Shown here: piece after piece, positions 346 through 58,860 of the stretch
Layout of the letters: the number at the start of each line of letters is the position of its first letter
How positions within the stretch are numbered: position 1 is the first letter of the stretch
Source of the DNA: Tetradesmus obliquus
Lineage: Eukaryota; Chlorophyta; Chlorophyceae; Sphaeropleales; Scenedesmaceae
DNA length: 64,000 bases
Direction: 5' to 3'
NCBI GenBank assembly: GCA_030272155.1
Contig: CP126197.1
Coordinates: forward strand, 2,170,001 to 2,234,000
The notes under the pieces: model-generated
Seen by the model: only the letters and a program-made list of their open reading frames with translations
What the model was told of the DNA's origin: nothing
Databases searched by the model: none
Translations under genes and position numbers: made by a program

Positions 346-2473
346 ATGCGCGGCTCCTTAGCCGTTCTGCTGGTTGTTTTCCTATCTTTTCTGAATCTAG
401 CTAGCGGACAGACGGTATTAGATGCTCTCACCGGCCTATGGCGCGGCAATCAAGGCAGTGTGCAGCGGGGTGCTGTCAACCTGGCACGCCTGTCAGCAAG
501 GCCGGCCCAGTACAACTTTACCCTGCCTCAGTGCAAAACAACAGACGTGTTGCTCAACAACGGAGGCTTCCCCAAAGATTGGGCTAGGTTGCAACCTCAG
601 GAACAGGTGGGAAGGGGTGCAGTGACGCACAGAACCGTGCAGCCTAGGACTGCTGTCACTTGCTGCCAAGCAGACAAGTGACACAGCTCACCCAAACCTT
701 TACAAGCACACCTGCCTGCTGCAATGGCAAACAACTTCATCCACCTCTAGCCAGCTGAGCGTGCAAGTTACCCAAGACAGCTGTGTCATCATTCGACTTG
801 CTGACTGCCAATGAGTTTGTGAGACTCATTGGGACACAGTGAGCTTGCAGCTTCCAGCCCTTTGCCACCCTGCACGCCATTGCTTCCACACTCACGTTCA
901 TCCCTTGCTGCCACTGCTGCCTACAAAACGCACAGGTGCTGCACCCCATCAACCTCGTGATGATGCAGCTGGCGTATGCAGTGTACCAACCGCCAGATGC
1001 CCTGACGGGCTGCTTGCAGGCCATGGGCATCGTGCCCAACAGCATCAAGGTGGTGGAGGCAAATGTGCCAGAGTATGACACAGTGCGCACAGCCTACGTG
1101 ATGATGGCTGCCAACCAGCGCATCTTTGTGCTGTTACGGTGAGCAGGCGGTGTGCACCGCACCTGTGATGGAAAGCGTAAGACACCTCTTACGTGCACTC
1201 ATGTGTTGACTGAGATGCCCCTGCCTATGCATCGTCAGCATGCCAGCATGCAGCTACACGTCATGCACCGCCTGCTACTGATGCCGGCTTGCAAACATAC
1301 CGAGTCTCCTAGGTACAATGCATGCACCATGTGGTGTCTCGCTGTGCACGCAGGGGCTCCGTAGTGACAAGGGACACACTCACGCATGACGTCACAAGCA
1401 AAATGCCAGCTTGCAACCACACGCCGTGCACTGCCTGCCGTGTTCTGTTGTGCATGCAGGAGCTCCGTAGTAACCAGGGACACACTCACGCATGACGTCA
1501 CCGTCAACATGCCAGCTTGCAGCTACACGTCGCGCACTGCCTGCCGTGTTCTGTTGTGCATGCAGGGGCTCCGTAGTAACCAGGGACACACTCACGCCTG
1601 ACGTCACCTTCAACATGCCAGCTTGCAGCCACACGTCTTGCACTGCCTGCCGTGTTCTGTGGCACATGCAGGGGCTCTGTAGTGACAAGAGACGCACTCA
1701 CGCGCGACGTCACAATCAACATGGCCTGCCGACATGTCCAGCCACCAGAGAACACCTTTGGAACACCTGGCAGCGACATCAGGCTGCACAGAGGCTTCTA
1801 CCGCGCCTGGCAGGTGCTAGAACCTGGCGTAACTGCAGCTGTGCAGGCATATTTGAAGAAGGTGCCTTCTGGAGAAGTGTATGTGGTGGGGCACAGCCTG
1901 GGAGCTGCGGTGGCATCTATTGCGGCACTGCGGCTCAATGCAGTGCTCGGCGCTGCGCAAGGCAGCAGGGGCACTGTGGCTGGTGTGTGGCTGATCGCGA
2001 GCCCCAGGCCAGGTGAGAGCGATTTTATGTTGTGGCTGGCTGGCTGCTGGCATGCAGGTGGCAGCATCAAGCGTGCTGTGTGGTAAATCAATCCATCAAT
2101 CAATCAATTACATGTTTTTCTAGCAAGAGGTGAACACAGAGAAGGGAGCCACTCCCAAACCACCTTAGGTGATTCGTGGCCAGTGAGTGTGCTGTGTGGT
2201 CGGTGTTGTTTTATAAGTGCCACGCTGTGGGGTGGTGTGTGGTTTGGACGCACCAGACCAGGCATGACTTGTTGCTGCTGACTGACTGGCTGATGCCAGC
2301 AAGTGTTGGCATTGCAGGATGCAGAGAGCAGCACATGCTGCGCAGGCAGGTGCCACATGCAGCCTGACAAACCACTTGCATAGACGATTGCAGGCGCAAA
2401 ACATGAAGACTGTGCTGCTGCTTGTGCCGTTTTCTGGCAACGGCTGCCTTCGCAGCTTGCTCTGTTGCTAATG

Positions 2474-2525
<52 letters not shown>

Positions 2526-3150
2526 AGGCAACGCTGCATTCTTCCAGGCATACAACAGCATCCTGATGTCCAGGACCCTGCGCATGAGCAACAACCAAGA
2601 CTTTGCCAGCCGCATGCCCTACCCAGTTCAAGACTGCAACATAGACAACATAGCTGCCGGACCAGCTGCCCTGTTCAACCTCAACTCGCTGTTTGCGAGC
2701 ACAGCACGCTTTGAGTTTGCGCATGTCGGCCGGGCTGTGCTGATGTGCCCAGACCCTCGAACAGGCCTCACAGACTTCAGGATGTTCCCTCGTGGCTCCG
2801 AAGTTGTGGATTGCACGGCAACAGCAGACGAAGTGGATGCATCTGGCGCTACACACCAGCTGGGAAGCTATTTTGATGCCTGGAGGCGAGGCTACGCTGC
2901 AAGCAGGGGCTCGAACCTGGCGACTGATCCGCGCGTACAGTCTGTGCTGTGCAACGCATGCACGCAGCGCGCAGAGACAGTGCTAGAGCAGCTCGCGGTG
3001 CCTGCTCGGCCTGGCGGCCCAGTCACCTGCGGTGCTGACGCAAGCTGTAGTGTACAGCGCGCGTTTGCTGCTGCTACTGCGCTGGGGAACGAGCTGGTGT
3101 CGCCGTTTGGCAGGGGTGGCTCCAGCTGTGTTGGGTTTGTGTGTGCTTAG
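346..3150 (+). CDS. Secreted class-3 (fungal-type) lipase, 4 exons
   Basis: Predicted alpha/beta-hydrolase that would hydrolyse acylglycerol or galactolipid esters outside the cell or in the secretory pathway. Exons: 346-606, 936-1138, 1672-2012, 2528-3150, giving 475 aa with frame kept throughout. Residues 1-21 form a signal peptide (hydrophobic Leu/Val core, then Ala-Ser-Gly). The lipase-3 landmarks are in order: IFVLLRGS (around 149-157, the oxyanion strand), HRGFYRAW (194-201), the nucleophile elbow GHSLG with Ser230, and an NNQDFASRMPY block matching the family segment that precedes the catalytic His region. The C-terminal exon is Cys-rich. The start is the first ATG after the TATA-like element and heads the signal peptide. 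Exon 3's start is repeated four times in the preceding intron (106-bp units). Substrate is not deducible; family call is firm, exact ends less so. Confidence 0.85.
1351..1774 (+). repeat. 106-bp tandem repeat, 4 copies, carrying lipase exon-3 start
   Basis: Units begin at 1351, 1457, 1563 and 1669, an exact 106-bp period. Each holds a CAG acceptor followed by the first codons of exon 3 (GSVVTRD) and a TGACGTCA-type palindrome (1387, 1493, 1599; CGACGTCA at 1705). Only the fourth copy runs on into the full exon, so the first three are intronic shadows with intact acceptors. Confidence 0.85.
2122..2172. repeat. Dispersed short repeat, copy 1
   Basis: A core of about 51 bp beginning AGCAAGAGGTGAAC and ending CCACCTTAGGTGA recurs at 25086-25136 with few differences. 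Both copies follow an (AATC)-like tetranucleotide tract (here about 2088-2109). This resembles the tail of a SINE or LINE read from the complementary strand. It lies in lipase intron 3. Confidence 0.6.
2475..2527 (+). repeat. (CTG)n tract ending in a splice acceptor
   Basis: About 17 CTG units end in CTGCAG, which is the acceptor of lipase exon 4 (2528). The tract takes the place of a polypyrimidine tract. Confidence 0.85.
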
Positions 3151-4516: not shown

Positions 4517-4700
4517 TTAATACTGCTTTCGCCATGACGATATAGATAGTGGGAAGGCATGGCTGAGGCTGCTGTAACAGCTGGCAGGAAAATGCAAGGG
4601 CTGCAAGGACACAGCCAGGTGCGAGCCCGCTGCAATGCATGCAGGAGCTGCCAGCTGTCAGCAGAGCAAACTGCTGGTCAGGTAGCCTCAGCCAATAGCC
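4517..4700 (-). repeat. Retrotransposon split repeat A, distal copy (184 bp)
   Basis: Virtually identical to 5464-5647. It starts TTAATACTGC and ends CAATAGCC on the plus strand. It forms the downstream terminus of the element in its sense orientation. Confidence 0.9.
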
Positions 4701-5276
4701 GTTTGAGGGGTTACACACTTTCAAGCACCGAGAGCGGCACAATTCAACAAGAGGCAAGACAGAGGAAAGGCGAAAGCAGCAGACAGGTGCAGGCACCGGC
4801 AGCAAAGGGAAGGCAGGGGACCAGCAACGAACAGGTCCCCAAACAAGCCTGGCGCAAGGGCGCACAACGCAGAAACAGGCAACGCAGGCCTGCAGCAGAA
4901 ACACTGCAAGAGCTGCAAAGCACCACACACTATGGGAAGCAAGCAGCATCAGCACAGCTATTAAAGCTGCACGACAGCGCACCACTGTCAGACGCTGCAT
5001 GGCAGCGGACATGACACTGTAATGTAGGGGCTGCAGCGGGCAACACCATCGCGTTGCTGCAAGGCAGCATAAAACCATGAAACCCAGCGAGCGGCACAGG
5101 TTCGGCAGGTAGCGCGGCACGTTGTGCATGTTGCGCAACTACTCTGCGGCAACTGACAACCAGTGGTCAGTCACCTGAAACCAGAGGCACCGCTAGCAAC
5201 ACAGCCACTGCAGCGCCACCACCCAGTGCACAATGCCGAACAGTAGCCACAAAAAAAAGGGGGCGGGAAGGGCGGG
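4701..5276 (-). other. Retrotransposon spacer between repeats
   Basis: 576 bp between the B1/A2 composite and the terminal A copy. No credible ORF; minus-strand ORFs here are Cys/Leu-rich noise. It ends in an A-rich then G-rich tract near 5250-5276. Confidence 0.6.
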
Positions 5277-5465
5277 CGAGTTGCAGTTCGCATGAACAGC
5301 AACGAAACGTGCAGGGCTAGACGCCTGCGCATGCTAAGTGGCCTTCGGCAGCAGTGAGGTAATGACGTGTTATGACTGTCACCTCACCCACTGCTTGCCT
5401 TTGACCAGGCAAGCAGGGATACAGCTACGCTGCATTAACCGCAATGAACAAGTCCATTGCACATT
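5277..5465 (-). repeat. Retrotransposon split repeat B, internal copy (189 bp)
   Basis: Matches 8923-9111 over the full 189 bp. It abuts and overlaps by two bases the internal A copy, which is the diagnostic composite junction of split direct repeats. Confidence 0.9.
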
Positions 5466-5647
5466 AATACTGCTTTCGCCATGACGATATAGATAGTGGG
5501 AAGGCATGGCTGAGGCTGCTGTAACAGCTGGCAGGAAAATGCAAGGGCTGCAAGGACACAGCCAGGTGCGAGCCCGCTGCAATGCATGCAGGAGCTGCCA
5601 GCTGTCAGCAGAGCAAACTGCTGGTCAGGTAGCCTCAGCCAATAGCC
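5464..5647 (-). repeat. Retrotransposon split repeat A, internal copy (184 bp)
   Basis: Second copy of the 4517-4700 repeat, placed directly beside the internal B copy. Confidence 0.9.
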
Positions 5648-6062
5648 ACATTGAAAAGACAATGGAGGGGGAGGGCTGCAAGCAGCAAGGCTTGCAGCCC
5701 ACCTGGCCCGCCGCAACACGGCGCGCAGATAGAAGCCACAACACATGTGGCAGGCAAACAAACAGACGAACCCCAGCGCACACCACTAACGCAGCAAACA
5801 CTCACGCTGCCAAACCTACACCGCTGAATCCAGGGCTGGGGCCGTTAACTGCTGCGAGAAGCAGCAGCAGAAGCAAACGCAAACCAAAAACACACAACCA
5901 CCAGCACAAACCGCCACTGCAGCAAGCATACATGCTGCCAACCTTCAAACCTCTGAATGTAGTGCTGGGGCCGACAACTGCTGCAAGCAGCAGCAACAGC
6001 AAATCAAATGCTGAGCAGCAGCCTTTGCGCAGCAAACACCTAGCTGCGGGACCAACTGCAAG
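5648..6062 (-). other. Retrotransposon region downstream of RT
   Basis: Low-complexity stretch between the RT stop codon and the internal repeats. It holds two diverged copies of a segment of about 60 bp (around 5809-5870 and 5938-6000, both containing CTGGGGCCG). No recombinase ORF is visible. Confidence 0.5.
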
Positions 6063-8036
6063 CTAGTGCTCGATGCGAACAGCTAGCAAGGGCCAGGAAC
6101 TGTGGCGCCGAGCCATAGGGCCGGTGAGCGTCGAACAAGGCAGCTGGAAGCTGTCAACCGCAAGCAGCATCAGCTCATGAAACCAAGGCTGAGCCGGCCA
6201 CAACGGCACCACCACCGTAACATTTGCACGCTCTTCGCGCACTTTCTGCACAACCTGCAGCAACATTGAGGTGGTGACAGGCGGGAAAGCAAAGGCATTG
6301 CCCCAAGCAGCCCATGGCTGCAGCAGGGCATCAACGCCCCTGCTGCCAGGGCACTGGAACAAACTGTAGAAGCAGTGACAGTGCGTGTTTTCCGCCGAAG
6401 CAAACAGGTCTATTTTGTGCGGGCCCCACATAAGATCCAGCCAACTAAACATCTCAGAATCCAGGCGGTAGTCCCCATGGTCAACAAAGCGAGAAGGTGC
6501 ATCAGCTCTATTAAGTTCTGATTTCACCCTGACCACCTGCAGCTGAACATGCAGATCTTCAAGCACAGACCACAACAACCTGTACTCGTCCATGAGAGCA
6601 GCGGACCGTGAAGCAAAGCGCCCCAAAACAGACTCTGTCACCGTGTTATCTTCATGCAGCCTCACTACACGATCGCGCACCACAGGCTCAAAAGACAGCA
6701 GAGCCATGCGCACAGCTCGCATCTCCTGCTGGTTGATGTGCATGCACGCTTCAACAGCAGACCAGGCGCCGTGAGCAACCCCTTCGGGGCGGTCGCCCAG
6801 GACAGGCAGCACAGCGCCCCAGCCTGTGGGACATGCATCAACAAACAAATCAACAGTAGCCGGGCGCAACCGAATAGGCGACGACAAATGCTGCACAGGG
6901 ATGCTCGCCCACCACTCAAGATCACGGAAGGACTGGCGGGAGATGCTGACAGTCCCATTCCAGCCAGAAACAGACGCACAATCGTCATACAAACTACGCA
7001 GAAACAGGTTGGCCGGCATGACAGCCAGCCGCACAGACTGCGCATATCCACAAAATGCAGCTAGCTCTCGCTTTGGCACGCGGCGCTTGTTCTGCTTGGC
7101 AGCAATAGCAATGCCGCGCGCCAGGCGGGTGAGGCGGGCAACCTTGGCTAGGGGCACACAGAAGGTGCCTTGGGCCAGGTCCACAACCAGGCCCAAATGC
7201 TCCAGCCGCTGGGTGGGCTCCCACACAGACTTGGTGGGGTGGGGCGTAAAGCCAAGCCAGTACATTATGGATTGGATCCACTCAGCACCGGCTGCTGCTG
7301 TCTCCTGGTCAGGGAACACAAACAAAAAGTCATCCAAGTAGGGCAGTACCTTGCAGCCAACCTGCGCTACACTGCCACGGCTGCCAGGCGCTGCAGGGTA
7401 CATGGTGCCTGACGGCACACGGGTATGCGCAGGGGAGCGCAGATGTGCAACAAAAGGCCTAGTCACCTTGGTGAAGTAGTATGGCGAGTTATTCCAGCCG
7501 AAAGGCAAGCAGTTGATCTGATAAAACTCGCCAGCAAACTCAAAGCAAAAGTAATCGACTGCGCTAGCGTGCAGAGGCACCTGATAGAATGCGTCTGCCA
7601 TGTCAGCCTTGACAGCAAAGGCATTGCTCAAGTCGTAACGCTGCAAAAACCGCAGCGTCTCAAACCTGCACTTGCGGGCGACATTGAAGGTGTTGACATA
7701 CTTGTAATTAATCACCAGACGCCAAGAACTGCCCTTGGGCACACAAAATGCATTAGAGCAGTATGCAGGGCGGGAGGCAAGCTTGGTAAGCACACCCAAC
7801 TTGCTGAGGCGGGGCGCTTCAGTGCACAACCACCATTGCTTTTGGGCGTTGGTAGATGGCAAAGGGTTCTTGTAAAAGGGGGGCGGCGCGCGGCCACCCA
7901 GCCACTCTACAGGAACACCATGCTGCAGCCAGCTGAGCACATGCGAAGATGCACCAATGGCACGCCACTGCTTGCCGCACAATCCTAAGCGCCTGTGCAG
8001 CGGCGTGCTTGCAGGAAAGCTGTGCACGGTAACCAT
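6063..8036 (-). CDS. Reverse transcriptase / RNase H of a DIRS/PAT-type element
   Basis: Uninterrupted 657-aa ORF. The N-terminal quarter carries a WRAIGASSHVLSWLQHGV segment typical of the start of DIRS RT domains. RT motifs follow: VPKGSSWRLVINYKYVN, KADMADAFYQVPL (first catalytic Asp), INCLPFGWNNSPYYF, and YLDDFLF with the YLDD catalytic box. RNase H follows with LFVDACPTGWGAVL, then E and D residues in the expected spacing. The tail has a DLFASAENTHC segment and FAFPP, both characteristic of the region after RNase H in DIRS elements. The ATG at 8036 is used because an in-frame TGA lies three codons upstream. The ORF has no frameshift or stop, so this copy is young or under constraint. It would make element cDNA; integration would need a recombinase in trans. 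Confidence 0.9.
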   Translation of the reverse strand: MVTVHSFPASTPLHRRLGLCGKQWRAIGASSHVLSWLQHGVPVEWLGGRAPPPFYKNPLPSTNAQKQWWLCTEAPRLSKLGVLTKLASRPAYCSNAFCVPKGSSWRLVINYKYVNTFNVARKCRFETLRFLQRYDLSNAFAVKADMADAFYQVPLHASAVDYFCFEFAGEFYQINCLPFGWNNSPYYFTKVTRPFVAHLRSPAHTRVPSGTMYPAAPGSRGSVAQVGCKVLPYLDDFLFVFPDQETAAAGAEWIQSIMYWLGFTPHPTKSVWEPTQRLEHLGLVVDLAQGTFCVPLAKVARLTRLARGIAIAAKQNKRRVPKRELAAFCGYAQSVRLAVMPANLFLRSLYDDCASVSGWNGTVSISRQSFRDLEWWASIPVQHLSSPIRLRPATVDLFVDACPTGWGAVLPVLGDRPEGVAHGAWSAVEACMHINQQEMRAVRMALLSFEPVVRDRVVRLHEDNTVTESVLGRFASRSAALMDEYRLLWSVLEDLHVQLQVVRVKSELNRADAPSRFVDHGDYRLDSEMFSWLDLMWGPHKIDLFASAENTHCHCFYSLFQCPGSRGVDALLQPWAAWGNAFAFPPVTTSMLLQVVQKVREERANVTVVVPLWPAQPWFHELMLLAVDSFQLPCSTLTGPMARRHSSWPLLAVRIEH

Positions 8037-8922
8037 GCTCAGATGTCAAGAAAAGGCACCACAATGATGTGCCCCACACAGCTGCTTAATGACACAACAG
8101 CTGGGTGTTCAGACGAGTAGCCTAATGACTGGCCGTTACGTGGGAGCCGCCCCACACTCGCCTGCTGTGTGCGCAGGGCGCTTACTGCACTGCTGCTCCA
8201 GCAGATGTGCTGCCAGAGCCCATGCCTCCGTTGCCAGTGCTGCTGCTGGCTGTGAAAGCCTGCAAGCTGCTCCAGCCGCCTGTTGTGGCGCCCATGCGCA
8301 GCGCGCTGCCGAACTGGCGGCGCGCAATCAGGTGTGTGCTGCTGCTGCTGCTGCGACGGCGCACACTGCCAATGAGGCTGCTGTTCTCGCCATTGCTGCT
8401 GCTGCTGTGGCTTCTGGGGCTGTCAAAGCAGCCACTCAGCGCCAGCGCTTCACCTGCTGAGCTCCAGCTGCTGTTGCTGGGGCCCAAACAACCCCTCATG
8501 CTGAGGAGGTAAGCAGCCATACGTAGCTGCGTGCTGACGTGCAGCAAAATGCCGGTCTGTCGGGACTGCACTGTGAAGACAAGCTCCAGCCGCTGGTGCT
8601 CCTGCCTGACGCTGGTGCTGCTGCGGCGCCTGCTGCTTGTGTCACTTATCTACACCCCTAAGCGGAGATAGCTGAGCTTAAGAAACTGCGGAAAGCGCAT
8701 TAACTCAAGCCCAGCGTGCCAAAAGGGCTGAAAGAGCACGCGACGGCCGCAGGTAGCCGTGCGTTCAGCTGCCTCTGGCCGACCTAAAGCAGGTCCTTAG
8801 TTTGTTCTCAGATATACGTAAGAACGATCTGGAGATATTCGGAGGTATTAATGGATCGATTTCAGAAAAGTGATGAAAAATAGGACGTGTGCAACACTCC
8901 AAACGCTACCGAAGTAGCGAGT
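8037..8922 (-). other. Retrotransposon leader, possible Gag remnant
   Basis: About 890 bp between the terminal B repeat and the RT ORF in sense orientation. A Ser-rich minus-strand ORF at 8182-8571 (129 aa) could be a Gag remnant, but it shows no zinc knuckle or other domain. There is no tyrosine recombinase signature. Confidence 0.35.
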
Positions 8923-9111
8923 CGAGTTGCAGTTCGCATGAACAGCAACGAAACGTGCAGGGCTAGACGCCTGCGCATGCTAAGTGGCCTTCGGCAGCAG
9001 TGAGGTAATGACGTGTTATGACTGTCACCTCACCCACTGCTTGCCTTTGACCAGGCAAGCAGGGATACAGCTACGCTGCATTAACCGCAATGAACAAGTC
9101 CATTGCACATT
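8923..9111 (-). repeat. Retrotransposon split repeat B, terminal copy (189 bp)
   Basis: Forms the upstream terminus of the element in its sense orientation; same sequence as 5277-5465. Confidence 0.9.
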
Positions 9112-9553
9112 TATGCTGCCGCACTCCTGGCAGCATTTGAATGAGCAGCCCGCAGCAACAGTTGACACATCAGACGCGGACACAAACGCATGTGTGCTGT
9201 ACAGCCCTTACGTCAGGCTTCACCTCCCTGCTGCCAACTCCACTCCTGCCTGCCTATCCTCACATCAAGAACCACCGTGTGGCACACATACTACTAACTC
9301 AGCCTGATGCGCACACCAGAACATGCAGCCGGTGATGCAGCCACGCCTGTGCATGTAGCTGCATTTAACCACTCATCACACTAAAGCTGCAGTGCCGCTG
9401 CGGCATGGCAAGGAAAGCAGCTGCACTGCAACCTGATGGCCGGCCTCACACTGGAAAGTACAACCAGGCAATGCCTGTGCACACAAACTCTGCTGTCATG
9501 GCTGTCTCTTGTACTGCTGAGCCCTTGAACTGAACCAAGCGGCTGCTGTGTGT
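9112..9553. other. Intergenic, retrotransposon to ISCA2-like gene
   Basis: Nothing recognisable; it presumably contains the 3' UTR of the minus-strand ISCA2-like gene. Confidence 0.4.
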
Positions 9554-11599: not shown

Positions 11600-13884
11600 T
11601 TGGCTTTGCCGCTGCCTACCCTGGTTTCATCCACTGCAATGCATTCCTTACACCACAAATCGGTCCTGCAAGGCTGCATGGGCATACGGTCCAGGTCTCG
11701 TAGCCAGTCGCATTACGGTCTGAGCCCCTGCAGCTCCAGCTCGTTTCGCACTCCACAAAACGGACTGTCCAGATATTCTTTAGTCAACACCCAGTCGGCT
11801 CGACCAGAAAGCGCCCAACAGCTGCAGCCTGATGTCGTGGAGGCTGGCAGCAGTGAGCAGCAGCAGCAGACTCTGGAGGCATTTGCCGCTGAGCAGCCAA
11901 CAGACGGCAGCATCACGCTGAGCGACATGTCAGTGGAGGACCCGCCAACATTCGAGGAGCTGGGCATTGACAAGCTACTGGTGGTGAGCATTTGCAATTC
12001 AAGTGAACGCTGTGCACCAGCCGGCGTCAGCATGCATGTGTGGTGGGCTGTGGCTGGTCAGCATGGTCAGCAAGCTGTTAGCGCCCCTGGGCTGTTGCAA
12101 TCTCATCCCGTTGCTGTGTTCCAGCTTCGTGCAAGCTTCTCTTTGGCAGCACTGCTGCTGTTGCCACACTGGCAGATGTTTTCACACCGCACCCAAGCAT
12201 GCATGCTCAAGCTACTCTGACGGTGGTCACGCAACTGCCTGCTGCTGCTGCTGCTGCTGCAGTCCTGCCTCGCTGAGTCAGGCATCGAGCTGCCCTCACC
12301 CATCCAGGAGGCAGCCATCCCGCAGCTGCTGGCGGCGCACAACGCAGCAGTGCAGAGCTACACCGGCTCCGGCAAGGTGCGAGGGGGCGCATGCCTGGCT
12401 TGAGCAGATGTAACAGTGATGAATTCAGCTTTTCAGACATAGGTCATGTTGTAGAGGCACTTCATGGTATTGTTTCAGGGTCACACGGGGCAGCTGTTAT
12501 GCGCCAAAAGGGGGTGCCAGCATCTGTGCCGCAAACCAAGGTCACGATCATGTGCACCATGGAGCCGCAGCTGCTGCCCATTGGTGTCCACCTGTGACCT
12601 TAGCCTTCCTGCCGGGGTCTCAACACAGGCTTTCAAGGCACTGCCACCCCTGCTGACACCCTCTTTCCGCGTCAACCTCCTACATGTCACACTCTCGCAG
12701 ACGCTGGCGTACCTGCTGCCAGCGATGACCCTCGCGCTGCGGCGCGCTGAGGCCACATACCGCCGCCAGCAAGCCGCCGCATCATCTGGTGCCTCATCCC
12801 TCGCGGAACAAGACCAATACAGCGTGCAAGTGCTTGTTGTAGCACCAAGCCAGGAGCTTGCAATGCAGATCTGCAGGGTGGCTGCTGGGCTGCTGCCCCC
12901 TGAGGGCCGCAGCGCAGTGCAGCAGGCCATTGGCGGGGCGAATATGCGGAGGCAGGCTGAGGCGCTTGCTGAGAAGCAGCCGCTGGTGGTGGTGGGCACG
13001 CCTGGGCGGCTGGCTGACCTGATGCGGTGAGCAGGATGCACGTTGTAACTTGTGTGTCTGTCAGTATGTGGTAGCAGGCGCGGTACTGGTTGCAGCAGCT
13101 GGTTGGCATCAGGTAGCACAACGTTGCGATGCATGTATATATGGAAGCCCATTTCGCAGTGGCGACATTGGCTGAGAAGCAGCCGCTGGTGGTGGTGGGC
13201 ACACCTGGGCGGCTGGCTGATTTGATGCGGTGAGCAGGGGATAGTGTAGTTAGTTGCATCATGTGTGCCTGGCAGCATGTGGTATTAGGCGCGGTCCAGG
13301 CTGCTGCAGCAGCAGCAGCGGCAGCAGATGGTTGGCTGTGGGCAGCACAACGTCGCGCTGCCTGTATAGGAGAGCATGTTGCTGTGTTTGTGTAGGCTGA
13401 GAAGCAGCCGCTGGGGGTGGTGGGCACGCCTGGGAGGCTGGCTAACCTGATGTGGTGAGGACGCAAAGAAACCAGCTGGTACTGAGGCTGTAAGAGGCAG
13501 TTTGAGGCGGTCACGGCGGCAGCAGCTGTTGACAACTACAGTGCATGCTGTATGTCTACCAGCATCTGATGGTTTGCTTGCCTGGAGGCATGTCGGTAGA
13601 CTAGCAGCGACATGGCCTAAGTCTGATCATATTCTGCTGCTGCTGCTGCCGCTGCTGTTGCTGCTGCTGCTGTTGTTGCAGCATGGGTGCGCTGCGGCTG
13701 CACCGCTGCCCCGTGCTCATCATGGACGAGGCTGACCAGCTGCTGGGAGATGTGTATGCAGCTGACATGGCCCACATCAGCGAGCACTGCGGCAAGAAGC
13801 TGGGCCAGCAGCAGCAGCAGCAGCAGCAGGGCGGCAAGGGCAAGGGCAGCCGTGCTGCAGGCAATGCAGCTGATGCAGCCGCAC

Positions 13885-13919
<35 letters not shown>

Positions 13920-15055: not shown

Positions 15056-15092
<37 letters not shown>

Positions 15093-15185
15093 GTTGAGGT
15101 GGTGTTCAACATCGAGATGCCCAGCTCGTTCAAGTTCGATCTCAAAGTCGCTCCCTGCTGCTGCCGCTGCTGCTGCCGCTGCTGC

Positions 15186-15242
<57 letters not shown>

Positions 15243-16344: not shown

Positions 16345-16378
<34 letters not shown>

Positions 16379-22300: not shown

Positions 22301-22685
22301 CATGACTGTTCAAAGCATCACACACAGACCCACCAGCGCTGCGACAAATCAAGGCAGCATGGAACAGGCACGCTGATGAAGCATATGTAAGATGAGACAA
22401 GCCGAGTGTTGCTGCTGCAGCGCCCAGCCGCACCAGAGGTGAGTCCCCCCGTGTTTTCATTCAAGATGCGCGATGAAGCATGTTGGACAATACAGTAACT
22501 GGTGGTGGTTTTGATGTATGCTGTGTACGCCACGACGTGCAATGTACTGCCCAGCCGCACCAGTGATGAGTCCTCCCGTGGTGAAGCTGATGACCCTTGG
22601 TGCCAGGTTGACAATGGCGTTGGCGGGCGCTACGACATTGGCTGCGATGTTGGTGGTCAGCGTGGCCAGGATGAGCCCTGCAGGT

Positions 22686-22737
<52 letters not shown>

Positions 22738-26607: not shown

Positions 26608-26639
<32 letters not shown>

Positions 26640-37094: not shown

Positions 37095-40000
37095 ATGGGC
37101 AACAAGCGGAAGCCCCCGACAGCCCAGGCTGGCAGCAGCAGCGGCAGCAGCAGCAAGAAGAAGAAGTTCAGCAAGGGGCCAAAGGTAAGTGGCTGCAATC
37201 ATCAATGGCGTGTATGGTCACCAGTATGTCATATAAAGATGTACGGGTGCGGTTTGAAGATTCTCTGCTCAGCAATGAGCCAGCCTGGCCAATAGCTGCT
37301 GCCATGACTGCAGCATCATGTTACTATCTTTTAGAGGTATATCTTCTGCACCTTTGCAGGGCAAGCCGCATTCCAGCAAGCAGCAGGATGTGCCGCTGCC
37401 AGGCTCAGATGATGAAGATGAGCAGGGCCTTGATGTGGGCGAGGAGGACTTGCAGTTTGTGCAGCAGTATGGCTCTCAGCTGGGCTTCCTGCGAGACCTG
37501 GATGCACAGCAGCTGGACAAGTGAGCGTGACAGTGTTAGTGTGGTTGAAAGTCGCAGCTTGCGCTGCTGTATCTTTTGGAAGCTGCTGCTCAGCCTTGCA
37601 GATACAAATCACAGCGTGTCAGTGCGCTGTCGTTGCTTGTCTATCACACCGGACCAGTGCTTTCCTGCTGACAGTGCTGCAGCACAGCAGACTTTCATGT
37701 GCATGCACGCACCCAAACTGTCACCCCGCCATTTGCATCTGCTGCTCAGGGCCGTGAAAGACAAGCAGAAAGCAGCGGCCGCCGCCGCCGCCACAGCAGC
37801 AGCAGCAGCAGCAGCAGCAGCTGGCAATGATGGTGGTGATGCAGAGGCTGGTGGCGGCTCTGAGGATGAGGGCGCAGCAGAGTATGAGCGCAAGCCAAGA
37901 GCAGCCGAGCAGGTGCGCAGTGTAGAATCTTCTGGCTGTGTTTGGTTGCGAAGAGTGCTCTAAGGTCACCTTGAGGCGTACTTTGCATCGTTGATTGGCT
38001 TAGCTCGGTGCTGACTTTGTGCATCTGTCACTTGGTGCTGCTTGACATCTCTTGGTTTTGTGCTCCCCCGCAGGTCTCCAAGGCCAGCAAGTATGGTCTT
38101 CCTGTGAAGACAGCAGCAGGAGAGGTGCTCTTCCAGCCTAGCCGCAAGCAGCAGCTAATAGCAGCTAAGGTGCAGGTGGAGGGCATTCAAGTTGAAGACA
38201 CGCTGCAGAGCGAGAAGGCGCAGAAAGCAGCGGAAAAGGAAGCGGCAGCTGCAGAGGCAGCGGAGCGCCGAGCGGCTGCAGCAGCGGAGAGGCAGGCGGC
38301 GGCGAAGGCAGCAGCTGCTGCAGAAGTTGCAGCCAAGAAAGGTGAGGTTCGGCTGCTGCAAATATGCTGCTCTCACTGCCTTGGCATGCAGCTCAGCTAC
38401 AGGCGTCATGTGAGGTTACGTGTTCTGTGTCAACAGAACCAGTGCTGCTATGTCAAGACAGAGTGCTAAAGGATCACCTTCTCTGTGGTGGTCTGTGATG
38501 TTGCCAACCCTTGGCCAGCACACAGCCACAACAAGGTCGTAGAACTACAACATGCACACGCAGCACCTGCTGACTTTGCTGCTTGTTGTTGACGTCTGTT
38601 TCGTTGTTTGAATGCTGCAGGACTGCCCTCTGAGGGCGGCCTCTCTCCTGCTCTGCTCAGCCTCATGTCCTTGCAGGACAGCCAGCAGCGCCGAGAAGCC
38701 CTAAAGCAGCAGATGGCCCTGGCAGCGCAGCACTTGCTGGCAGAGCCTGAAAAGCATGTAGTGCCTGGGCTGCGGCTGCTGCTGGGATGTGCTGCTGACA
38801 GGGATGGGGTGGTGGTGCGGCTGGCACTACTGTCGCTGCTGGCTGTGTTTAAGGACCTGCTGCCTGGCTACAGGATACGCAGCTTGACCGAGGAGGAGCA
38901 GGAGGTGGGCGGGGTTTAGATAGAATGCTTGCTTGCAAAGCGGTTTTGCTGCCTTGTTGATCGTGCTGCAGGAGGTGGGCAGGGTTCACAGGGTTTGCTT
39001 GCTTGTAAAGCGGGTTTGCTGCCCTGTTGTGCACTGCATTGCAGAATCAACAGCAGCTGGGCTAGAGCCTCTGTAGGGTTGTGTATTGCCTGTCACTCTT
39101 GCTTGTCAACATGGCAAAACACAATCTGCTGTTGCCGGTTGGCCTAGCATCTTCATATGTGTGTTTGGCCGCTTGCTGTTTCTCTCTCGGTTGCAGATGC
39201 GGGTCAGCAAGGAGGTGCAGGCACTGCGTGACTACGAGCAAGCGCTGCTCAAAGGCTACCAAGCCTACCTCAAAACCCTACTGGCAGCAGCAACCGCAAA
39301 ACCCAACGCCGCACCTACAGCTGGCCACAGCAGCAGCAGCAGCAGCAGCAGTGTACTGGCTACAAAGCGTGTGGCTGTGCGCTGCATGGGCCAGTTGCTA
39401 GTGGCACGGCCGGGGTTTAATTACTGCAGCGACCTGCTGCAGGCGCTGGTGCCGATGATGCTGGGGCCTGATGCGCAGGTGCAGGGGGCTGCGTGTGATG
39501 CGCTGCGGCAGCTGCTGCAGGAGGACGTGCAGGTGGGTGGGGCACGTATGTTGGCACAGGGCTGTACTGCTGGTGGTCGACCTTGTGAAGACGGCTTAAA
39601 ACAATGGTCACCTTACTGCATCTCACATGCCTTGTCACTGCCGACTCCTGCAGAACAACTTTTCGCTGTGAGGCTGTGCAGCTGGTGGCTCACCTGGTCA
39701 ATTGGGGTGCACATCTCACTGTTCGCACTGCACCCCGCCTGCCTCTCAAACGCACACTCCTGCAGGGCAAGTCCTCGCTGGAGGCCGTGCAGCTGGTGGC
39801 TGACCTGCCCTAACAGCAAGCACTGCAAACTGAATTCCGCAACTGTTATGCCATGTCTACTGCTGCAGGGAAAGTCTTCCCTTGAGGCTGTGCAGCTGGT
39901 TGCTGACCTGGTGAAGATGGCGCAACCTGATCATCGCTTTACTGTATCATGTTTGCCTTTTCACTGCTCGATCCTGCAGGGCAAGTCCTCCCTTGAGGCT

Positions 40001-40396
40001 GTGCAGCTGGTGGCAGACCTGGTGAAGACGCGCAGGTGCAGCGTGCCCCCCGTGGTGGTCAGCTGCCTGCTGGTGCTGCGCTTCGAGCAGGTGACGCCTG
40101 TCAGCGCAGGCGGCGAGGGCGCGGGCGGCGGCAAGGCCAAGAAGGTGAGGAGGAGATAGATGCAATGCTGTCATGTGCCTTGTCCTATTGTGATTCAGGC
40201 AGCAGCCAACCATAGGCTCCTACGAAGTGGCGAAACAATATGAAGCCAAGAAGGTGAGGAGAAAGCAATTAGTATGTCAGGCTGGCATGTGTTTTGTCTA
40301 GTGGACTTCAGTCAGCAGCCAACATAAGGCTTCTGAGAAGCGGTGGAACAGTAATAGTGCTCCTCATCGCCAACTGTTCGTTCATGTGAGCTATCG

Positions 40397-40465
<69 letters not shown>

Positions 40466-41971
40466 AGCTGGGCAAGAAGGCAGCGCGCCGTGCCAAGCGC
40501 AAGACTGACCTGGACAAGGAGTTTGAGGAAGCGGAGGCAGGGCCTGACCTGGCTGAACTGGCGCTGCTGCAGAGCCAGATGCTGGAGGTGCGTGGGTGAT
40601 ATGCTTGTTTTGGCATCTATGCAGGCTGCATGCTGCTGATTGTTCCACCTGCAAGGCAGAGGCAGGGCGTGAGCTGGCTGAGCCGGCACTGCTGCAGAGC
40701 CAGATGCTGGAGGTGCGGCATTGTGTGTGTTTGGATTTTTATGAATCCGCTCTAAATTGAGCGGGCAGAGGCTGAGGCGGGGCTCGACCTGGCTGAGCTG
40801 GAGCTGCTGCAGAGCCAGATGCTTGAGGTGCGGCGCTGTGGGGTGGTAGTGCCTGGTTTGCCTGGTTTTGTTTGGTTTGGTGTTTGTTTGACATGTTACG
40901 CTTGCTGATAATGTCAACTATTTGGTGCCTGAAGACATGCTGTGCCTGATTTCATGCAAGGGATTGTGTATGCCGCAGCTCATTCCATGATCCCACGAAG
41001 CGGTACATGCTGATGAGTGGATTTACCTGCGTTGACTGTGTATGCTGCAGGCGCTATTTGAGGTGTTCTTCCGCGTGCTGAAGCACTGCAGCACAGCAAC
41101 CTCCAACCAGGCAGCAGCAGCAGCAGCGCAAGCGGCCGCCGCAGACGACAACAGCAGCAGCAAGGGCGTCCTGCAGCAGCCGTGGCAGGCGTCCAAGGTT
41201 GCGCGCAAGTTCCCGCTGCTACAGCCGGCGCTGGAGGGCCTGGGGCGCTACAGCCACCTCATCAGTGTGGAGTACTTCAATGACCTCATGGCTGTGCTGC
41301 AGGAGGTGCGCAGGCTGCCAAGGATCATAATTATTTTGGTTTGCTTGTGAGATTTTGTGAGATTGACTGTGGGATGTTTGAACGGTGTGCAGAGTCGCCA
41401 GTAGCTCGCAGCCGTATGCGTGAATATTGCCGCATCCTCATTACTCCAGGTGTGCTGCTCATGCAGCATACAGCGAGCTGGCAGCTGATGTGTGGACAGC
41501 AAACTAGTCCGTGTTTGGGTTGCATTGACGGCACCGCATGGGCCTAGTCCTCCGATGCCTGCTCACTTAACCTGGTCCGTTGCGTTGTGCTGCTGTCGCT
41601 GCGGTCGTGTGTTGTCGTGCCTGCCCCTCACAGCTGCTGGCTGCTGGTGCGCTGCCGCTGCGTGAGCGGCTGGGAGTGCTGCTGGCTGCGCTGGACATCT
41701 TGAAAGGGCAAGGCGAGGCACTCACAATCGACAGGCGGGCCTTCTACAACCAGCTGTACCAGGCGCTGCTGCTGGTGCCACTGCAGCTGCTGCACGAGGC
41801 GGGCGACTTTCCTGCAAGGCTTGCAGGAAAGCTTGCAGGAAAGCTTGCAGGAAGCACTGCAGCAGCAGCGAACGGTACTGCCGATGAAGATGAGCAGTGG
41901 CTGGATCAGGAGGACTTGCAGGCACTGCAGGCGGTGCGTGCAAGCATACTGGGGCTGGAAGTTGCTGCAGC

Positions 41972-42002
<31 letters not shown>

Positions 42003-43463
42003 AAGGGCGCTGCAGCCGGAGCCAGCAGCAGCAGCAGCAGCAGCAGCAGAGACGTAGCGCCTACGCCAGTGCTGCTGCTGCGCTGCCTGGAGCAGCAGCT
42101 GCTGGGAGTGAAGCAGACAGACATGGGGCGGCTGGCAGCATATGCAAAGCGACTGGCGCTGCTGATGCTCACCAGCAGTACGCCTGAAGCGCTGGGCTGT
42201 GGCTGCCTACTGTACCGCCTGATGCGGCGGTATCCCAAGCTGACGTGCCTGTTTGAATGGGAGGGTGGCGCTCCTGTTGGCGGGCGGCAGTTTGATGCGG
42301 ATTGCTCGGACCCTTCGGAAGCAGGTGGGTCGAGGTGCTGCTGTGTGCACAGCTCAGGAAAGGGTGCCTGTTCAAAAGGTGTCCGTGTGCATGCTGCAGT
42401 TGCCATAGCCTTGGAATGAGGTTCATGGCAGGTGCAGTGCTCAGCAGCCTGTGATGGTTAGTTTGAAGGCATGTTTTGACAGCTAGACGTGTGCTTGCAA
42501 AGCACCCTGCACTCACTATGCCAGAGCGGTTGAGTTTTGTTACGCAGTTGCTTGTGCGTATCTGCTGCTGGCGAGCACATGTGCATATCATCTGCTCTTA
42601 CCAGAGACCTTCCACAAGCATCCTTTCCCCTATCCGTCACTGTCACTGTCACCGCTGCCTGTGCAGGTGCGATGGCTGCAGCACTGTGGGAGCTGCCGCT
42701 GCTGGCCCAGCACTACCACCCACACATTGCAGCAGCAGCGCGCATGCTGCTCACGCTCACACCAGGCTCAGGATCAGGGTCTGCTGCTGCTGCTGCTGGC
42801 AGTGCTGCTGCCGGTGGCAGTGGGGATGCTGACGCAGCAGCTGGCTCTGGCACTGCTGTTGGAGCTGCTGTGATAGCTGGCGCTTCAGGGCCGCAGGACG
42901 TGGCAGCGGTTTATGGGCCAGTGAAGCTGGGAGGGTTTAGGCCGGCGCCGCCGATGCCTGCCGGTGCAGGAGGCAGGGGTAAAGGGCGGGTGAATGGGGC
43001 TGTTGCTGGCAGCAGCAAAGCAGGTATGGCAGCAAGGCAGGCAGCAGCTGGCCGGCCATGGTGCCTGGACCTGCAGCACGCGATCGCAGCAGCAGATGCG
43101 CCGGAGGAGCAGCAGCCGCAGCAGCATGTGCAGCAGCATGGCAAGCGGAAGCAGCAGCAGCCGCAGCAGCGGCAGCAGCAGCAAGCTGCTGTGGTTGCAG
43201 CTGCAGTGGCAGCTGCGGATGCTGTGGATGTGCAAGGGGCTGAGCAGGCGCTGCAGGAGCAGTATCGGCTCAGCAAGCTGTACAGGCGCAACAATGAGCT
43301 GCGGCTGGAGCTGGCGGTGTCAGCAAAGAGGGTAGAGCTATTCAGGGAACACCTGATCCAGAAGCGGCAGCAGGAAGAGCAACAACAGCAGGAGCAGCAC
43401 ACGCAGCCAAGCAAGCAGGAGCAGCAACAGCCGGTGAAGAAGAAGCACCGCCAACGTGCTTAG
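37095..43463 (+). CDS. NOC3: NOC3-like nucleolar complex protein, 11 exons
   Basis: Predicted nucleolar factor that works with NOC2 in 60S ribosomal subunit maturation and export; yeast Noc3 also acts in replication initiation. Exons: 37095-37184, 37360-37520, 37750-37912, 38074-38341, 38621-38904, 39197-39532, 39980-40144, 40468-40587, 41051-41305, 41634-42324, 42667-43463; 1109 aa with consistent phases. Diagnostic blocks: VVRLALLSLLAVFKDLLPGYRIR (about 290-312, shown here in parts as LALLSLLAVFKD and LPGYRIR), VSKEVQALRDYEQALLKGYQ, KRVAVRCMGQLLVARPGFNY, FEVFFRVLKHC, FPLLQPALEGLGRYSHLI and ALWELPLLAQHYHPHI. The N-terminus is Lys-rich (KKKKFSKGPK). The protein is longer than the usual 660-800 aa because of Ala, Gln and Ser tracts. 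Exon edges 5, 7 and 8 are multiplied in introns. Confidence 0.85.
38905..39040 (+). repeat. Tandem duplication at NOC3 exon-5 end
   Basis: GCAGGAGGTGGGC plus about 60 bp of intron (CTTGCTTG-AAAGCGG-TTTGCTGCC) recurs about 71 bp downstream. It copies the last codons and donor of exon 5. Confidence 0.75.
39640..39979 (+). repeat. Three shadow copies of NOC3 exon-7 start
   Basis: CTCCTGCAG or CTGCTGCAG acceptors followed by GKSSLEAVQLVADLV-type codons lie near 39654, 39767 and 39870. The complete exon starts at 39980. Spacing is about 105-115 bp; the oldest copy has lost the GKSS codons. Confidence 0.9.
40399..40467 (+). repeat. (CTG)22 tract forming the NOC3 exon-8 acceptor
   Basis: A pure run of CTG units ends in CTGCAG directly at exon 8 (40468). 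It is the longest uninterrupted triplet run in the window. Confidence 0.95.
40655..40832 (+). repeat. Two shadow copies of NOC3 exon-8 end
   Basis: The AEAG-DLAEL-LLQSQMLE codons and GTGCGG donor recur at about 40660-40712 and 40768-40829, spaced near 115 bp. A small copy of the exon-7 end (GCCAAGAAGGTGAGGAG) is at about 40243. Confidence 0.85.
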
Positions 43464-43827: not shown

Positions 43828-45669
43828 ATGGCTCAGTGCGAGACGCAGACGATGCCAGTGCTGCCCCTGTCACCACCGAGCAGTGCCAGCTCGCCGGAAA
43901 AGCCACCTTGGAAGCCAAGCAGCTGCCTAAGGGGCGAAACTACCACTGTAAGAGGCGTCTGTCGCGGCATGCCACGCAGGGTAGCAGAGCAAGCTTGGCT
44001 GCAGCAACAAGACAGCAGCAGTCAGGGCAGCTGCCTGCAGTGAATGCTGTACCAGGCTGTGACATGTGGCTTATGATTGTACGTGTCTCACAACATGCAG
44101 AGGCGCTTCGAGCTCCCAAAGTCAAATATAGCCCTCAGTGCAAACGGTGAGCCATCAGGAAGGAAGCAGTGCCAGGGACGAGCATGTCTGCCACAGTGCA
44201 TCGCACCGCAAGTGACTGCCAGCTGCACCACTGCATGGTGAAGCATGAGTAGCATCCACAGACTGTATCACGACATGCAAGACACGTTGCTCTGCAGGCT
44301 CTGCCATATTTGGTATAGACGAAAAGCCTACGCGTCGCATCATCAGGTGTGTGCACATGACAGCCTGCTTCTAAAGTTTGGCAGCCTTCCTTTGTGCTGC
44401 AGCAGAACTGTGCTCAAACTTTGCAGCAAACACATGCTCTGCAAGCTGCAGCTGAATGCCGGCAAGCATGCGCTGGACGCCTACTTCCTATCTTGGTGGT
44501 GCTGATTCCTGCAACTGCATGCTTGGCGCTTTGCTGCAGCCACGACTTTGAGCAGCATAAGAAGTGGGAGAACAGTGCCAGCCAAGACCGCCAGTGCAGC
44601 AAGCCGCAGGGGCAGCGCTTTGCTGCATCAGCAGAGTGGCAGCAGCAACACCAGCGGCGGCGCAGCCAGCAGGCAGCAGAGGAAGATGAGAAGCAGGTGC
44701 GGCTCGGCAATGCGTTGCACATCCAGCACAGCCGCAGATGCAGCCCGCATGATGGAATGCACGCTGCTTGCCAACATGCTCAATAAGCCGATGCTTGAAG
44801 GTGCAAAGCAGCAGGCACCAGGCCAAAGTCACCTGCACAAACGCCTCATTGGCTAACAGCCAGGGTGACAGGATTTGTTGTTTAGACCCCTATCAAGCCT
44901 CTGCTCGCTGGTCAATGCTCCTGTGCGGCTCCTGCAGGCACAGCACGCGCTGGACAGCCTTGCAGGCATCCTGCACCAGCTGCCAGAGTACCACACATCG
45001 AGCGCAAATCCACTAGCCACCCGGCCGCAGACAGCAGCAGCTGCAGACGCCGACGCTGACGCCGCCACCAGCAGCGCTGCAAACGACGCAGGCATCTCAC
45101 AGCCCCAGAGCCCTGAGCTGTGTGAGAAGGCCCAGCATGCACACGACCTGCACAGCCACCTCACCACAGGCAGCCTTGAGCCGTCGCCTGGCCAGGCTGA
45201 TGAAGAGGAGGAAGAGAGGCTGAGGAAGGCGCGCGCGCTGCTAGCTGCAGCGCTGGCGGAGGAGTGCAGGAAGCAGCAGCAGGTGGAGCAGCTGGAGCGG
45301 CAGCTGCTGCTGGAATACCCACACGGCCTGCCTGTGAGTGGCTATGCATCGCAATGCTGATGGCGGTTCAGGAGCTGCACTGTACTTGCTGCAAGTATTG
45401 GCAGCCATGGGCCTTGCAGCAAGCAACAGCAGACGTAATCACTCACAATGACGTTGGCCAATCGTTCTGGGATGTTGCTTGCTGTATGCGCTTGTGTGTT
45501 TCTGGCAGTTGCTCATCTGCTGCCGCTGCTGGTGCTGATGCTGCCTTTGCTGCTACAGAAGCGCCTTCAGAAGGAGTTGCAGCAGAAGGGTGTTCAGCTG
45601 CCGAGCCTGGGCTTTGGCTGTGCTCACACCGTGCCCTCCCGCGAGACAGCATACACTTCGACACGCTGA
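43828..45669 (+). CDS. Unrecognised tandem family, cluster gene 1, 6 exons
   Basis: I do not recognise this family. Exons: 43828-43947, 44101-44146, 44298-44346, 44540-44696, 44938-45333, 45559-45669; 292 aa. Shared family motifs: exon 1 ends WKPSSCLRGETTT; exon 2 RRFELPKSNIALSANG; exon 3 AIFGIDEKPTRRII; exon 4 HDFEQHKKW then QRFAASAEWQ; exon 5 starts QHALDSLAGILHQLPEY and ends LLLEYPHGLP after an acidic, Gln-rich helical stretch; exon 6 KRLQKELQQKGVQLPSLGF. Exons 2 and 3 are 46 and 49 nt, as in the other three genes. No signal peptide or membrane helix. This is the most diverged member in exon 5. A TGTAA motif, the green-algal polyadenylation signal, lies at 45747-45751. Confidence 0.7.
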
Positions 45670-46894: not shown

Positions 46895-48302
46895 ATGGAA
46901 AACACGTTTTCTGGCAGCTCATGGTCTTCTGGGGCTGGAGCTTCGCCTACTTACTACACACAGTCCTCCTCGGCCTCAATGGCGGGGTGCCTGCAGTGGC
47001 AAGGAAACCTCTACGCAGATAGACAGCCACAGCAGTCGACGTGGGCACCTACTAGCTCCCTGAGGGCCGATGCTACACAGGTACTGACGTGGAAGTGGGA
47101 TGTGACAGCAGCACAATACGATGCAGCAACAGCAGCAGCAGCAGCAGCAGCAGGCAGAGGGAGCAGCAGTGGCACAGGGCAGGGGCAGCACCCAGGTGGA
47201 GGGTGCAGGTTGTGTTACGACTGGACCGCTGGCATGAGCACCACAGAAAGTATGAGCATTGATATTTAGGTCGTGCCATAATCAACAAGGCAGAGGTGCC
47301 TGCAAATGGCCCACCTTGTTTGTGGTTCTGCTGGTTTGTGCTTGCAGGACAGGTTCACAATGCCTAAGGCAAGTGTGGCTGTTGATGGCAGAGGTGAGGT
47401 TGATGAACTAGCCCAGAAACAGAGAATTGTTTATTTAGGTTCATCCAGCTGCTTGCCTTCCTTATGCAACTGGGGGCTTCATTGCAGTACAGTAACGTCA
47501 CCAGCACTGACACAGCCACAGCCATGAACATCTTTTGCAAGCACCACTGTTGGGAGCATGCTGAGTCCCTTTGGGTGGCTACTCAAACAGAGCTGTGTAT
47601 ACCAAGCATGTCACAGTATCGGCTCAAGTTGTGCTGTTCATTGTACTGCCTAGTTCCCTTGTTGCTTATGCGTGTGTGCTGACCTACACAGCTCCTGCAC
47701 GGTTGCTGCAGGTGTTGCCAGGATTGGCCTAAGCAAGAAGCCCCACCTGCGCATCATGGGGTGAGATTTGAACACAGTGCCATGCAGCACCTGAAATGTA
47801 ACACATATTTGATGCTTGTACATGCTGCATAGAGGCCTCTGGCTTCTGTAGTGCCTGGTGCAGCATCGACACCACATTGCCGCGTGTTGCAAGCTCAATT
47901 ATGTCCAAAATCCAAAACTGCATGAGCCCCACATCTGCCTACTTATTCCAATGCAGCCACGCCTCATGGACAAACACACGCTGGCAGCTTCTGGGCATTA
48001 TGACATCAACCCAAACAGACATTGGTGTAACCCATCTGTTTGCTTCATTGCTAATCTGCTGCTGCAGCATTATGACATCAATTCAAGCAGACATTGATGT
48101 AACCCGTCTGTTTGCTGCATTGATGATCTGCTGCTGCAGCCCGGCATTTGAGCAGGCCAAGGCTCAGGAGAACTACGAGGCTGAGGTGGCGCTGCTGGCA
48201 GGGCAGCACAAGGGGCAGCGCTTCGCTGCTGCAGCAGAGTTCCAGCAGCATGTGCAGCAGCAGCGTGCAAGGCAGGAGGAGGAGGCAGCCAAGAAGAGGG
48301 TG

Positions 48303-48339
<37 letters not shown>

Positions 48340-49139
48340 AGAATGTAAAAACATATTTTTCTGGCTTGCCTTGTTGTATGACAAGCGTGCTGGTGCTGTT
48401 GCAGTGTTGCCCTTTCACCAACTCACTCCAGTCTCAACTTGAGCTGCTGCCCTTGTTTTTGTTTGCAGGCCGACGGCCTGACCGCTGCCCTCAACAGGCT
48501 GCCCAAGTACCTCACCTCCGACGACAACATACTGGCTGACACGCTCACCTGCTGCCCCTGATCCTGTTTCTGTCTTTGTGTGCAGGTTGACGGCCTGACC
48601 GCTGCACTCAACAGGCTGCCCAAGTACCTCACCTCAGGCGACAACATACTGGCTGACACGCTCTCCCACAACCCGCCCTCACCGGCCGGCAGCCGCCCCG
48701 CCTCGCGCCCACACAGCCCCGAGGTCGCTGCAAAAGCCCAAAAGGCGCTGCGAGGGCATTTGGCAATCGGCTCGCTGCTGCCGGAAGATGAGAGCGAGAG
48801 TGAGGATGAGGAGCAGCAGGAAGGAGAGGAAGAAAATGTGCGGCAGTTGGGCGCGATGGCTGCTGCAGAGGCTGCGTACATGCAGGCGTATGCCAGGGAG
48901 GGCGAGATCATGGCCGACTACCCGCATGGTGCACCGGTGAGCGGCTGATCAGATCAGATACTGCAGCTCTGATACATTGGACATGTGTGTTCCAAGGCGA
49001 TGACCCTGCGGTGGTATGATTTGTAGTCGCGGGTGATAGTGGCCAGGCTTGACAATGTCCTGGTGATGTCTACACACACACTGCTGATGCGTTTTCGATC
49101 ATGTTCTAAGTGACATTGTGTGACCTGCTGCTGCTGCTG

Positions 49140-53425: not shown

Positions 53426-53457
<32 letters not shown>

Positions 53458-58403: not shown

Positions 58404-58464
<61 letters not shown>

Positions 58465-58822: not shown

Positions 58823-58860
<38 letters not shown>

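Follow-up and report, generated by a model that had tools for sequence, protein, structure and literature searches.

The window analysed here is a stretch of 64,000 nt of the Tetradesmus obliquus genome (contig CP126197.1, positions 2,170,001 to 2,234,000; the genome comprises 104.66 Mb in 17 contigs). Six genes of the window were modelled by hand: a lipase, a DEAD-box helicase, an NCS1-type permease, a HAD-family hydrolase, a 5-exon gene that we take to be ALKBH6-like, and a NOC3-like gene. Their models contain 39 introns with 78 splice edges, and all are in frame without stops. Inside the introns we found direct copies of the edge of the adjoining exon, which include the exon end and mostly keep its splice site. 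We call these copies shadows. The genes and their shadows are as follows.

346-3147, plus strand: lipase gene (PF01764), exons 346-606, 936-1138, 1672-2012 and 2528-3147; 475 amino acids in frame
1343-1671, plus strand: three acceptor shadows of lipase exon 3; 106-bp unit, offsets -106, -212 and -318
11639-17021, plus strand: DEAD-box helicase gene, 7 exons; 882 amino acids in frame; Pfam DEAD and Helicase_C, exons 1-6
13171-13459, plus strand: two donor shadows of helicase exon 3; offsets +203 and +428
15027-15125, plus strand: acceptor shadow of helicase exon 6; offset -152, exon-side match
15561-15917, plus strand: two donor shadows of helicase exon 6; offsets +246 and +496
19394-27764, minus strand: NCS1-type nucleobase/allantoin permease gene (PF02133), 10 exons; 564 amino acids in frame
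25359-25844, minus strand: three donor shadows of permease exon 5
24778-24820, minus strand: donor shadow of permease exon 6
23706-24204, minus strand: six acceptor shadows of permease exon 7, in a 92-bp tandem array
23262-23464, minus strand: donor shadows of permease exon 7
22766-22812, minus strand: acceptor shadow of permease exon 8; offset -129, exon-side match
22422-22453, minus strand: donor shadow of permease exon 8
20919-22346, minus strand: ten acceptor shadows of permease exon 9
20403-20586, minus strand: donor shadow of permease exon 9, retaining residues found in relatives
19740-20080, minus strand: three acceptor shadows of permease exon 10
28173-31627, plus strand: HAD-family hydrolase gene, 8 exons; 308 amino acids in frame; Pfam Hydrolase_3
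28647-28683, plus strand: acceptor shadow of HAD exon 3
30173-30242, plus strand: donor shadow of HAD exon 6
30534-30579, plus strand: acceptor shadow of HAD exon 7
31184-31255, plus strand: donor shadow of HAD exon 7
34165-36751, minus strand: presumed ALKBH6-like gene, 5 exons; 319 amino acids in frame; no Pfam family for the two exons tested
35655-35884, minus strand: two acceptor shadows of exon 3 of the same gene
34933-34975, minus strand: donor shadow of exon 4 of the same gene
37095-43460, plus strand: NOC3-like nucleolar gene, 11 exons; 1109 amino acids in frame; homologues P0134 and P0135 with PF07540 and PF03914
38968-39029, plus strand: donor shadow of NOC3 exon 5; exon part of 7 bp only
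39756-39917, plus strand: two acceptor shadows of NOC3 exon 7
40656-40832, plus strand: two donor shadows of NOC3 exon 8
48454-48549, plus strand: acceptor shadow of the exon starting at 48586 in a seventh, partly modelled gene

The repeats that an initial annotation had placed in these genes were present by TRF and self-BLAST. With an unrestricted search, a local direct repeat crosses 20 of the 78 curated edges (8 acceptors and 12 donors). Matching of the exon side only, within the intron, added the acceptors of helicase exon 6 and permease exon 8 and brought the number to 22. At least 15 exon edges in seven genes had been claimed; this was borne out by the 22 edges in six genes and by the acceptor at 48586 in the seventh. 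A 72-bp repeat in that gene (47995-48140) ends at the acceptor and is internal to the intron; 48586 is the one clear case of this gene. The copy number, put at up to about 11, is highest at the permease exon 9 acceptor, with ten shadows.

All 20 edges have their partners on the intron side: acceptor copies lie upstream and donor copies downstream, and none is reversed. The initial annotation had pointed out this order, and the observation stands. However, when a duplicated unit runs from the intron into the exon, the exon-start copy necessarily precedes the complete exon, and donor copies do the reverse. The rule is therefore automatic and gives no evidence of mechanism.

We surveyed 335,692 bases in 33 stretches, namely the window, 25 sampled 10-kb stretches and 7 small loci from a search. 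The samples were drawn from about 66 of the 104.7 Mb, with contig C4 and the far contig ends outside the draw. Direct local repeats scoring at least 20 numbered 1,115, compared with 1 in the reversed-sequence control. This rules out chance as their source, as had been suggested. Inverted local copies were rare (18), and direct copies scoring at least 22 cover 42,207 bases. Identities in 63 non-coding repeat pairs range from about 0.75 to 1.0, with 5 of the 63 at 0.98 or above; this range is consistent with duplication still continuing.

On the intron side, 44 of 47 copy pairs were more similar in gapped alignment than any of 60 shuffles, which indicates that whole units were duplicated, although in arrays the compared stretch may hold further copies. 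The three pairs that did not outscore every shuffle were helicase exon 6 at +496, permease exon 5 at +560 and the permease exon 9 donor. Short ungapped intron sides had suggested templated insertion, in which edges are copied without intron; this idea was dropped because of the gapped alignments. The best copies lie at offsets of 44-496 bp at the edges examined. Where the initial annotation spoke of tandem duplication, direct duplication across edges was found, but several copies are not adjacent, their intron parts having diverged.

Curated introns with a duplicated edge have a median length of 612 bp, versus 279 bp for those without. In the sampled stretches, a strict count found 24 of 325 edges shadowed, these edges being predictions of a self-trained splice model and not annotation. 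Examples in genes with Pfam domains are acetate kinase (L015), glycosyl hydrolase families 1 and 31 (L027 and L032) and a RecQ-type gene (L031). Of the genome-wide mode of intron lengthening proposed earlier, these lengths and cases support longer introns and occurrence elsewhere in the genome, but a special status of exon edges was not established. In the acetate kinase gene (L015:2200-4500), three different short coding pieces each occur about 3-6 times in the predicted protein.

Exon-side matching yielded 48 copies after self-hits were dropped (30 acceptor and 18 donor); it was run without a shuffled control, and the weakest copies may be chance. AG or GT is intact in 42 of the 48, and 20 of these 42 score equal to or above the real site. 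Judged from these motifs, there is no sign that competing splice sites are being purged. To this extent the arrays of competing acceptors and donors described in the initial annotation appear to be retained.

Homologous proteins were compared for three of the six genes (lipase, permease and NOC3). The lipase is identical to OEZ85_012879 of T. obliquus at 466 of 475 residues (98.1%). The permease is identical to OEZ85_012883 at 562 of 564 residues (99.6%), leaving aside a 27-residue insert in the latter; further permease homologues are P0015 and P0016. All junctions of the lipase and the permease are matched by one or more homologous proteins, as are 8 of 10 NOC3 junctions. The exceptions are OEZ85_012883 (P0014), with its insert at permease junction 8, P0015 and P0016, which lack N-terminal sequence, and P0134, which has gaps or inserts at NOC3 junctions 3 and 5. 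Apart from the P0014 insert and the P0134 gaps and inserts, relatives' proteins cross the shadowed junctions of the three genes without extra residues. If the window genes make the same proteins, the last acceptor or the first donor of each array must be used. Such agreement without extra exon sequence would not suggest new introns.

The 27-residue insert in P0014 (591 amino acids) corresponds to a shadow of the 20919-22346 array in another reading frame. It was not found in P0015-P0017 and looks like a gene-prediction error. At the permease exon 9 donor, the shadow contains a 13-residue stretch that is the same as in P0015 and nearly the same as in P0016. The complete exon 9 has a different version of the stretch, common to the window gene and OEZ85. 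The working copy thus seems to have been altered more than its own donor shadow. We searched the whole genome with the exon part of this one edge, and among the 40 of 229 candidates scored it matched its own locus only; a second gene copy as the source of shadows was therefore not seen for permease exon 9.

Two palindromic features lie in the permease gene. A palindromic dispersed repeat at 21781-21871, in an intron, has dozens of copies in the genome, and a palindrome at 25328-25447 includes an inverted copy of the end of exon 5. In the HAD gene, an inverted copy of the start of exon 7 is located at 30665-30704.

The comparison of introns with their own exon edges, which the initial annotation had proposed for the whole genome, was run on the 39 curated introns and the sampled stretches. 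Hit edges were counted under a loose rule, a middle rule (at least 6 bp on each side) and a strictest rule (at least 12 bp on each side). Under the loose rule, 20 curated edges were hit versus 13.7 predicted from interior coverage (bootstrap 95% of the difference, 1.4 to 11.4). The middle rule gave 17 versus 12.3 (0.5 to 9.3) and the strictest rule 11 versus 10.4 (-4.5 to 6.3). Only one of the two copies decays on the exon side, so some excess at edges is expected even without targeting. Special targeting of exon edges is unproved, though edges are modestly above interiors in the curated genes.

The differences between shadows and exons are concentrated at the third codon position. With one copy from each of 43 edges, mismatches at positions 1, 2 and 3 numbered 46, 37 and 137, a ratio of position 3 to positions 1-2 of 3.29 (95%, 2.43-4.52). 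The 19 window edges gave 18, 16 and 68 (ratio 4.00, 2.57-6.26), and the 24 edges outside the window gave a ratio of 2.79 (1.90-4.48). The mutation spectrum of non-coding repeats in the same genome predicts a ratio of 0.95, i.e. no bias. Mutation bias is thus unsupported as the cause of the excess. From this spectrum, the ratio expected for a dead copy that derives from its own exon, with both on one chromosome, is at most about 1.9. Differences that separate an exon from all its shadows fall at position 3 in 21 of 27 cases. Stops occur in 9 of 1,448 codons (90 copies), compared with 9.6 expected for free mutation at the position-1/2 rate. The remainders of the offsets modulo three (0/1/2) are 9/4/6 in the window and 10/5/9 elsewhere, with no clear preference for multiples of three. 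By our own arithmetic, about 40% (all copies) to half (window) of the position-3 divergence is beyond that of a dead copy of the own exon; less certainly, it arose while both copies were coding. Divergence at birth was not supported by the identity spectra, in which the non-coding pairs show no gap near 100%.

We think it probable that the shadows result from ordinary local duplication, that the edge copies are dead copies that lengthen introns, and that part of their divergence is older than the duplication. Short DNA segments would be duplicated locally in the T. obliquus genome. A segment crossing an exon edge in a gene with short introns would leave an intron with an extra exon end and an extra acceptor or donor. 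As long as the complete exon is still joined, through the last acceptor or the first donor of the array, the protein would be unchanged and the duplication therefore tolerated. Thereafter the intron would grow and the copies would decay as unselected sequence, with splicing presumably ignoring them. Part of the divergence would predate the duplication, perhaps through exchange between diverged haplotypes or alleles of a diploid alga.

Excess position-3 divergence that arose while both copies were coding fits exchange between diverged alleles, which may be the simplest source of a coding past of the shadows. The shadows might then be a fossil record of other exon alleles, formerly working on different haplotypes and hence differing mainly at synonymous sites; we put this forward tentatively, as a possibility. 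In an alga that is diploid, hybrid-like and mostly asexual, diverged homologues could exchange sequence mainly within exons, and such exchange would create or re-sort the edges of exons and also make introns longer. The accessible text of PMC12636532 describes a T. obliquus strain that is diploid and extensively heterozygous, and that of PMC7955037 considers the related strain NREL 46B-D3 likely diploid. The assembly of strain DOE0152z is 208 Mb, almost twice the reported size of UTEX 393 (PMC5552973).

Several observations weigh against local duplication of dead copies with an allelic past, and some of them favour other explanations. The allelic step draws on proteins and theory, and OEZ85 and OEZ86 would presumably represent two haplotypes of one strain; the lipase residues of OEZ85 agree with the real exon and not with the shadows. 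The abundance of hits at edges could mean that splice junctions are hot spots where a process linked with transcription or splicing breaks or copies DNA (stalled forks, R-loops or exon-anchored recombination, the last with introns too diverged between haplotypes). In the sampled stretches, the loose count hit 114 of the 325 edges where interiors predict 21.8, and a stricter overlap rule hit 45 where they predict 15.5. The loose excess at curated edges points the same way. Local repeats also make up 31% of the curated introns in the window, versus 2.7% of the DNA outside the modelled genes and the mobile element; the corresponding difference in the sampled stretches is small (7.7% versus 6.0%). 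However, the count of 114 is inflated by repeated exons (e.g. L012 and L023) and by copies predicted as exons, and predicted exon interiors in these stretches are 17% repeat-covered. When predicted-exon and exon-side partners were dropped, the strict count of 24 (7.4%) was about the interior coverage of 8.0%. The excess at curated edges nearly vanishes under the strictest rule, and slower decay of the exon side already predicts some of it. We regard hot spots as doubtful.

The codon pattern could also mean that the shadows are functional coding or regulatory pieces under selection, such as alternative exon ends or poison exons. Some coding constraint on them is possible from the sequence: private changes of shadows are position-3 biased too (61 of 115, ratio 2.3), window shadows differ from each other by 122/1038, 63/1067 and 313/1053 at positions 1, 2 and 3 (the pairs are not independent), and one copy per edge gives 4 stops versus 6.5 expected. 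The largely intact splice motifs agree with such a role. Against it, stops in the full set are near the free rate, and even 4 versus 6.5 is not far from it; multiples of three are not clearly preferred among the offsets, and the rest of the exon is missing from the copies. P0001, P0015 and P0016 have no insert at the shadowed junctions that they cover, although those genomes may not carry the shadows. Functional pieces are, in our judgement, unlikely. Remnants of complete exon duplications, truncated later, would account for a period with both copies coding, and complete exon repeats do occur in the sampled stretches. About half of such remnants would be expected on the wrong side, whereas all 20 partners are on the intron side, which makes this origin very improbable. 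It is scarcely credible that haplotype pieces or repeats were joined in tandem by the assembly, even with T. obliquus strains and a relative reported or thought, in the accessible text of the papers, to be diploid. Two haplotypes cannot supply as many as ten diverged copies of one edge, the contigs are chromosome-sized, and in P0014, annotated on another T. obliquus assembly, the same junction carries shadow sequence. For one T. obliquus strain, a gapless assembly is also reported, as far as the accessible text goes.

Tandem alternative splice sites provide near-identical competing acceptors or donors, and intronic minisatellites consist of short tandem units. Unlike these, the units found here include up to about 100 bp of exon, and the extra sites are predicted from sequence. 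Gao and Lynch (2009) reportedly found internal gene duplications to be frequent, splice sites included, and counted them for exon or intron creation; the copies here instead look like dead exon ends. A potato RdRp gene carries a tandem duplication spanning the 3' end of an intron and the start of an exon (Ma et al. 2016, PMC4974935), and tandem duplication as a source of new introns is also treated in a review (PMC3443670), both according to their accessible text. As in potato, the duplicated segment covers intron end and exon start, and the copies are left to the spliceosome to sort. In contrast to potato, where a new intron was made, an existing intron appears to grow while the protein is unchanged, with several copies per edge and at many edges. 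Like introners, as described in the accessible text of PMC9860276, these introns are built of repeated units. Introners are dispersed and create introns, whereas the present copies are local and edge-specific, as far as the search with permease exon 9 goes (40 of 229 candidates scored). The shadows thus differ from known intron-creating duplications in the growth of existing introns, in copy number and in frequency. No description of exon-edge shadows in Scenedesmaceae was found among the matches listed in a literature search that left subscription papers mostly outside.

These natural arrays each place between two and eleven similar acceptors or donors at one exon, and RNA data from them would make the rules of splice-site choice readable. 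In every array, the protein is preserved by taking the longest intron and the shortest exon, in line with what exon definition would predict. The arrays also offer a measurable route of intron growth and are a trap for gene predictors. If the allelic reading is true, they would preserve traces of exchange between haplotypes.

A dispersed repeat of about 100 bp, which has at least 39 other genomic copies, was found inside introns at about 2086-2189 and at 25061-25139. Related genes at 44540-45330, 48140-48936, 52876-53700 and 58289-59320 share a motif like TSxDNxLADxL; the two pieces tested had no Pfam match. The mobile element at 4517-9119 has split direct repeats in the order A1-B1-A2-B2 (4517-4700, 5277-5473, 5464-5647 and 8923-9119) that are 99-100% identical. 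It contains a 660-codon minus-strand frame with a reverse transcriptase and a Dam-methylase match just below the Pfam cut-off, and we take it to be DIRS/PAT-like.

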